Shown here: in pieces, positions 19,679-20,687 of the stretch
How the letters are laid out: each line of letters opens with the position of its first letter
How positions within the stretch are numbered: position 1 is the stretch's first letter
DNA from: an alpha proteobacterium SCGC AAA288-N07
GTDB lineage: Bacteria > Pseudomonadota > Alphaproteobacteria > Pelagibacterales > Pelagibacteraceae
Length of the DNA: 40,932 bases
Reading direction: 5' to 3'
Assembly (NCBI GenBank): GCA_000513055.1
Contig: AZYB01000007.1
Coordinates: forward strand, 1 to 40,932
The notes under the pieces: model-generated
Database searches by the model: none
What the model was told of the DNA's origin: nothing
Seen by the model: the letters and a program-made list of their open reading frames with translations, nothing else
Made by a program: the position numbers and the translations under genes

Positions 19679-19804
19679 ATGCTTAGATATCAACAACAAC
19701 ATTCTAAATTAACCTTGCATAAAGGCATAAAAGAATTTTATTCTATGAATCCTGTATTTGCTGAAGCTGCGAGCGCCAACAGCGAGCAAGCATTTAAGGT
19801 TTAA
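19679..19804 (+). CDS. Small ORF, 41 aa, possibly a truncated remnant
   Basis: MLRYQQQHSKLTLHKGIKEFYSMNPVFAEAASANSEQAFKV*; not in the ORF track; no clear SD. Confidence 0.3.
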   Translation: MLRYQQQHSKLTLHKGIKEFYSMNPVFAEAASANSEQAFKV

Positions 19805-19846: not shown

Positions 19847-19922
19847 GCCCTCATAGCTCAATTGGTAGAGCAACTGATTTGTAATCAGTAGGTTCGCGGT
19901 TCGAGTCCGTGTGAGGGCACCA
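19847..19922 (+). tRNA. tRNA-Thr(TGT), CCA encoded
   Basis: Cloverleaf: GCCCTCA/TGAGGGC acceptor, anticodon arm ACTGA-TTTGTAA-TCAGT, T-loop TTCGAGT, ACCA end. Confidence 0.96.
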
Positions 19923-20030: not shown

Positions 20031-20135
20031 AATCAAGATCCCTAGAAACTTTTTCATAAACTTATGCTACAAGAATTTTACTAGGTTTTGGATACACCGA
20101 AGTACTTTAATACTGTTTAGTTTATTCAGCTGCCG

Positions 20136-20189
20136 TTATTGCTGCTGAATATAAGTGCCTATAACAATTATGCCTATTATCACCCACAT
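20136..20189 (-). CDS. Putative 17-aa membrane microprotein MWVIIGIIVIGTYIQQQ
   Basis: Reverse strand reads AAAAAAAAGGAGGTATCATT-ATG TGG GTG ATA ATA GGC ATA ATT GTT ATA GGC ACT TAT ATT CAG CAG CAA TAA; strong SD at 7-nt spacing. Confidence 0.5.
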   Translation of the reverse strand: MWVIIGIIVIGTYIQQQ

Positions 20190-20611
20190 AATGATACCTC
20201 CTTTTTTTTATTTATTATACCAAATCTGATAAACGTTTCATTAGTTTTCTAGCTTCAACAAAGAGCATGGGATTATGATAAGGTTATTGCTACTGATAAT
20301 AGTACAATAGTAAGTGTTCCGGAGATTAAAAATGCAGTTCGCATGACAAAGATTTAAAAATTAACAAATGGTCCTGTAAGCAGGATAAACCAATAACAAA
20401 ATATAAAAATATAAAATAATTTAAAACGCATTTGATGTCTAAGTAGTAATCGATTGTGTTCAAATAGTGTTTTGGCTAGAAATTTTAAAAAATATTTTTG
20501 TAAATTTTATCGTAGTTAAGAAAAAGAGATTAGAAGAAAAATCTTTTCTGAGTGTGCCCAAATTGAGCTAAGTTCAGTTATACTAAGTTTCTAAACGTCA
20601 GAAAAGTGTGG

Positions 20612-20687
20612 TGGTGGCCAGGGACGGAATCGAACCGCCGACACAAGCCTTTTCAGGGCTCTGCTCTACCGACTGAGCTACCTGGCC
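20612..20687 (-). tRNA. tRNA-Phe(GAA), CCA encoded
   Basis: Reverse complement GGCCAGGTAGCTCAGTCGGTAGAGCAGAGCCCTGAAAAGGCTTGTGTCGGCGGTTCGATTCCGTCCCTGGCCACCA; anticodon loop CTGAAAA. Confidence 0.96.

Follow-up and report, generated by a model that had tools for sequence, protein, structure and literature searches.

A conserved pair of membrane microprotein genes and a candidate genome-private micro-ORF in a tRNA spacer of a Pelagibacterales genome

CydX, CydY and CydZ are small single-helix membrane subunits encoded beside cydAB; they are poorly annotated and variable in sequence, with few fixed residues (PMC4325964). CydX stabilises or tunes cytochrome bd (PMC4325964). The locus described here lies in a genome of near 1 Mb and 29% G+C, whose size, base composition and gene content point to a marine alphaproteobacterium of the SAR11 type with a streamlined genome. 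It contains two comparably small membrane proteins, ORF1 and ORF2, followed on the same strand by an open reading frame of 17 codons. With a probability of roughly 0.6, the spacer that holds them has two layers – a conserved ORF1-ORF2 cassette, and hypervariable debris downstream of it in which the 17-codon ORF lies, private to this genome.

Features of the spacer between tRNA-Phe and tRNA-Thr

Coordinates are those of the window, the whole stretch of 40,932 nucleotides that was analysed. In what follows, g1 is the genus of this genome, g3 is a second genus and f1 is the family. An Rfam search of the window gave two tRNAs only above the gathering score, and these border the spacer. A preliminary description of this DNA had pointed to an unexplained region of about 1 kb; it chose the right spacer, but overlooked the two conserved microproteins that lie, without Shine-Dalgarno (SD) sequences, just upstream of the 17-codon ORF. 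The features of the spacer, apart from those of the 17-codon ORF, are:

20612-20687, minus strand: tRNA-Phe(GAA), the upstream border of the spacer (ARAGORN)
20450-20464, minus strand: cassette box TTTGAACACAATCGA, its core AACACA 29 nt 5' of the ORF1 start
20354-20431, minus strand: ORF1, a 25-aa membrane microprotein MRFKLFYIFIFCYWFILLTGPFVNF under purifying selection, with homologues in g1 and g3 (E down to 1e-17)
20273-20344, minus strand: ORF2, a 23-aa membrane microprotein MRTAFLISGTLTIVLLSVAITLS, paired with ORF1 in g1 and in most g3 loci
20228-20270, minus strand: a gene-start relic (ATGAAACGTTTATC...), like the starts of a secreted-protein family in genome G002 (88% over 43 nt, E = 2e-9)
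20031-20071, minus strand: a second relic, from a dispersed type of signal-peptide start (MKK-F/L-LGIL; MKKLLGIL-type), with four further copies in the same genome
19987-20029, plus strand: 11-bp direct repeats next to tRNA-Thr, four copies of GATTGTGTACA
19847-19922, plus strand: tRNA-Thr(TGT), the other border of the spacer (ARAGORN)

The sequence beyond the end of ORF2 differs in each of three genomes (this one, G002 and G003), and the 17-codon ORF sits between the two relics. The secreted-protein family is present in G002 as tandem paralogues with common start regions (L010, G002:C10), of which one start remains as the relic in the window. The 11-bp repeats GATTGTGTACA resemble the cassette box in reverse complement, and are possibly sites for a recombinase or a regulator. 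A 41-aa ORF, MLRYQQQHSKLTLHKGIKEFYSMNPVFAEAASANSEQAFKV, is found upstream of tRNA-Thr (19679-19804).

Conservation, location and possible role of the ORF1-ORF2 cassette

ORF1 and ORF2 are 9 nt apart in the window. In G002 and G003, where the locus also follows infA and tRNA-Phe, alignment with the window (83% and 78%, respectively) runs from 20523 to 20273 and ends at the ORF2 stop codon. Among 197 family genomes, an ORF1 profile matched three of the five g1 genomes and 16 g3 genomes (E 1e-17 to 4e-3), with no convincing match beyond these two genera, and this genome was the only match among 385 genomes of the class. A weak match in several g4 genomes (FLYLFIFFTWAIIILGTFQNFI) was not counted, with an E of about 0.04 and no partner ORF, and a 45-aa frame that starts with TTG and overlaps ORF1 was rejected because G003 has it broken. 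A search for ORF1 in viral sequences gave no match. Neither microprotein had a match in Pfam or NCBIfam or a useful match among PDB chains, and PHROG matches were weak (E of at least 0.03).

The gap from ORF1 to ORF2 is 3-9 nt in most loci. The order is reversed in three genomes (G135, G158 and G027), in which an ORF2-like frame lies directly 5' of ORF1. Three g3 genomes (G147, G126 and G049; L140, L141 and L142) have a further 29-aa membrane ORF, ORF3, with a start that overlaps the ORF2 stop (TAATG or ATGA).

Both frames are kept, with change biased toward synonymous sites, and are under purifying selection. The ratio pN/pS was mostly 0.2-0.5 for ORF1 and ORF2, and in nine of the ten pairs tested amino-acid changes were fewer than if the same substitutions had been placed at random (p = 0.0002-0.04). 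Second codon positions changed least in the comparisons of ORF1 plus ORF2.

The cassette is single-copy, yet it is found at about nine different chromosomal places. The commonest, in seven g3 genomes, is about 95 nt 3' of petA-petB-petC (petABC), before a convergent ychF; the others are beside folD, tsaD, a DMT permease gene, a cupredoxin gene or a tRNA gene, and in g1 behind infA and tRNA-Phe (neighbouring genes were named by reading their translations). In 14 of the 18 loci fetched the AACACA core precedes ORF1 by 28-30 nt, and in G027, where ORF2 comes first, it is about 28 nt before ORF2. Since the core is kept at a set distance across such varied sites, the cassette seems to move with its control box. 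In this genome the extended box is matched exactly at one place. In loci L140-L157 and in the window, the AACACA box is often accompanied by CTGCGACAAAA further upstream.

ORF1 and ORF2 would be two tiny single-pass inner-membrane peptides, probably co-expressed from a promoter that contains the box. Their likeliest role, suggested by size, hydrophobicity and the frequent siting behind petABC, is regulatory or accessory: by analogy with CydX, the two peptides may pair in the inner membrane and there stabilise or tune a larger membrane complex. Linkage to any one complex is not constant – petABC in the seven g3 genomes, other genes elsewhere – and in the other f1 genera checked petC adjoins ychF directly, with no cassette between them. 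This counts against the proposed role, and for this reason the idea, drawn from the petABC linkage, that ORF1 and ORF2 are intrinsic subunits of cytochrome bc1 was set aside.

More tentatively, the pair may constitute an undescribed module – two membrane peptides, single-copy, relocating with a fixed upstream control box, and under selection in two genera across about nine sites – beside which the 17-codon ORF could be a young membrane peptide that was recruited there. It is unusual for two microgenes in single copy to retain a control box while their neighbours change, and one may ask by what means they relocate. Annotation misses genes of 23-25 codons, so the ORF1-ORF2 pair makes a concrete and testable contribution to the part of the membrane proteome that stays hidden in small-genome bacteria.

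The 17-codon reading frame

The preliminary description had reported an SD sequence, an ATG and a hydrophobic peptide on the minus strand, and all were present, followed by a TAA, when the sequence was reread. The features are:

20214-20241, minus strand: promoter-like site ATGAAA-16-TATAAT with an extended -10 (TG before it), scoring 10/12 in a consensus scan
20196-20203, minus strand: Shine-Dalgarno sequence AAGGAGGT, 6 nt 5' of the ATG (read directly)
20136-20189, minus strand: 17-codon ORF MWVIIGIIVIGTYIQQQ, with its ATG at 20187-20189 and its TAA at 20136-20138 (read directly)
20123-20151, minus strand: a hairpin across the stop codon (fold z = -3.4; inverted repeat I14), with no T-run after it

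The minus strand from 20212 to 20136 reads AAAAAAAAGGAGGTATCATT-ATG...TAA, and the order is thus promoter-like site, AAGGAGGT, ATG, MWVIIGIIVIGTYIQQQ and TAA. This anatomy is gene-like. The promoter-like site is the best of six in the spacer, on a consensus score that is by itself no evidence of function. The peptide, with a GRAVY of 1.36, would insert in the membrane if made, though 17 aa is about the lower limit for spanning one. Past its stop the frame runs on for 22 codons, and read through in this way it had no Pfam or NCBIfam match. It was rightly described as one that ORF callers would miss, and its SD as rare in this AT-rich sequence: among the window's 41 larger ORFs, AAGGA precedes one, AGGA two and GGAGG none.

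No relative of the 17-codon ORF was found. A DNA search of 100 relatives matched only the 43-nt piece 5' of it, and a degenerate pattern of its first nine codons, with up to two mismatches, had no credible match in 397 family genomes. The protein was found in none of the four genus mates. The preliminary description had made it decisive that relatives should share the SD, the start and the stop. They do not do so at this locus, where similarity to G002 and G003 stops 84 nt short of the ORF, and no copy was found elsewhere; at the sensitivity used, start, SD, frame and stop are not kept in the four genus mates or the 397 family genomes. The four genus mates are each at most 83% complete, so a close relative with the ORF could be unsampled, a point against calling the ORF private.

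One proposal that its position invites is that the ORF is a third cassette gene, equivalent to the ORF3 of three g3 genomes: it lies on the same strand 84 nt 3' of ORF2, and ORF3 is likewise a small membrane ORF after ORF2. However, the N-terminus of ORF3 is polar and its frame overlaps the stop of ORF2, a separate promoter-like site and SD precede the 17-codon ORF, the two ORFs have no convincing similarity, and an unrelated gene-start relic separates ORF2 from the 17-codon ORF. This equivalence is very improbable.

A pattern of SD, MW and hydrophobic-glycine spacing was also used. In 84,980 GTDB species genomes it matched a single site, in Halorubrum, which fits chance and was rejected as an orthologue, and in IMG/VR it had zero matches. 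A looser pattern gave 36 stretches in IMG/VR; they shared only the MW-hydrophobic-G start that the pattern imposed, and are not orthologues. The 17-codon ORF might be the truncated start of a small membrane protein of a phage or mobile element, since IMG/VR holds many SD-led small proteins that start MW[VIFL]xxG (for example MWVIIGIMCIVAMF...), the frame continues past its stop, and tRNAs flank a spacer that contains the tandem 11-bp repeats. The likeness does not extend beyond the short start that was searched for, though, and there was no PHROG match on read-through, no phage DNA match of note and no integrase identified nearby, all of which makes this origin improbable.

Whether the ORF exceeds chance depends on what is counted. 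The motif AGGAGG-N4-9-ATG occurs 24 times in the genome and 23 times in a reversed control, so it is not enriched and by itself proves little. Outside long reading frames, such sites lead into four long ORFs and two tiny hydrophobic ones – the 17-codon ORF and one of 24 aa on contig C30. A hydrophobic ORF with such a lead is rarer. Sequences simulated with first-order Markov statistics taken from the spacer gave, for an ORF that has at least 14 codons, 12 or more hydrophobic residues out of 14 and AGGAGG upstream, an expected 0.0002 occurrences over both strands of the 965-nt region and 0.02 per 100 kb, expectations to be read in the light of the ORF having been picked post hoc, once the sequence had been read. 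The 17-codon ORF therefore exceeds what composition gives, which also weighs against placing it in the debris. Without the SD requirement, about 0.3 short hydrophobic ORFs were expected in the spacer.

That last figure, the unenriched motif and the lack of conservation are what would be seen if AT-rich spacer DNA had left the frame open by chance. Such a chance frame is rather unlikely, given the joint rarity of SD and hydrophobic peptide and a promoter-like site upstream and in register. The same rarity (0.02 per 100 kb) favours a functional, expressed membrane peptide – a toxin-like peptide or a young small regulator, for example – that recently arose or arrived, as do the promoter-like site, the hairpin, the hydrophobic peptide, an SD that is strong where SDs are rare at starts, and the second orphan tiny membrane ORF on C30 with the same AAGGAGGT lead. 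Against this are the failure to find an orthologue in the genomes searched, a consensus scan in which no antisense promoter across the ORF was seen, and a length near the limit for membrane spanning; a functional peptide is unlikely.

The C30 ORF (G000:C30:8036-8117; L138, about 1500-1584) has the lead AAAAAGGAGGT, the peptide MGFWELAVIVVVFTQVARIGGWID and a strong GC hairpin 3' of it, and no homologue was found in the 60 relatives searched.

In the two-layer reading, the 17-codon ORF would belong to the debris, as a micro-ORF with gene-like signals that recently arose or was acquired. From its sequence it is a candidate for a genome-private ORF. The case indicates that in such genomes a strong SD alone says little about conservation, as the conserved neighbours have none.

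Comparison with known systems

The 17-codon ORF has the short hydrophobic frame with a ribosome-binding site that is a trait of type I toxins (17 aa, GRAVY 1.36, AAGGAGGT). Like type I toxin peptides and TimP, it also has its own promoter-like site and is missed by gene calls (PMC8309996, PMC7667032). Unlike them, it has no homologue found and no antisense RNA promoter across it in a consensus scan; none of the plus-strand promoter-like sites reads across it, and the nearest, at 20191-20218, points away. Of the earlier suggestion, the short hydrophobic peptide and its gene-like signals stand, but nothing supports a small regulator or a toxin in particular, with neither an antisense promoter nor a family match. 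The 17-codon ORF shares its first residues and a strong SD with phage-encoded small membrane proteins that have an MW-hydrophobic-G start. These are mostly longer, and the 17-codon ORF has no phage context or family match (PHROGs and phage DNA were searched).

ORF1 and ORF2 resemble CydX, CydY and CydZ in being very small single-helix membrane proteins that are poorly annotated, variable in sequence and often near respiratory-complex genes (PMC4325964). They differ from CydX in being 23-25 aa long, in being paired, and in having no homology to any family tested, known small subunits included. CydX stays with cydAB, whereas the ORF1-ORF2 cassette changes its neighbours.
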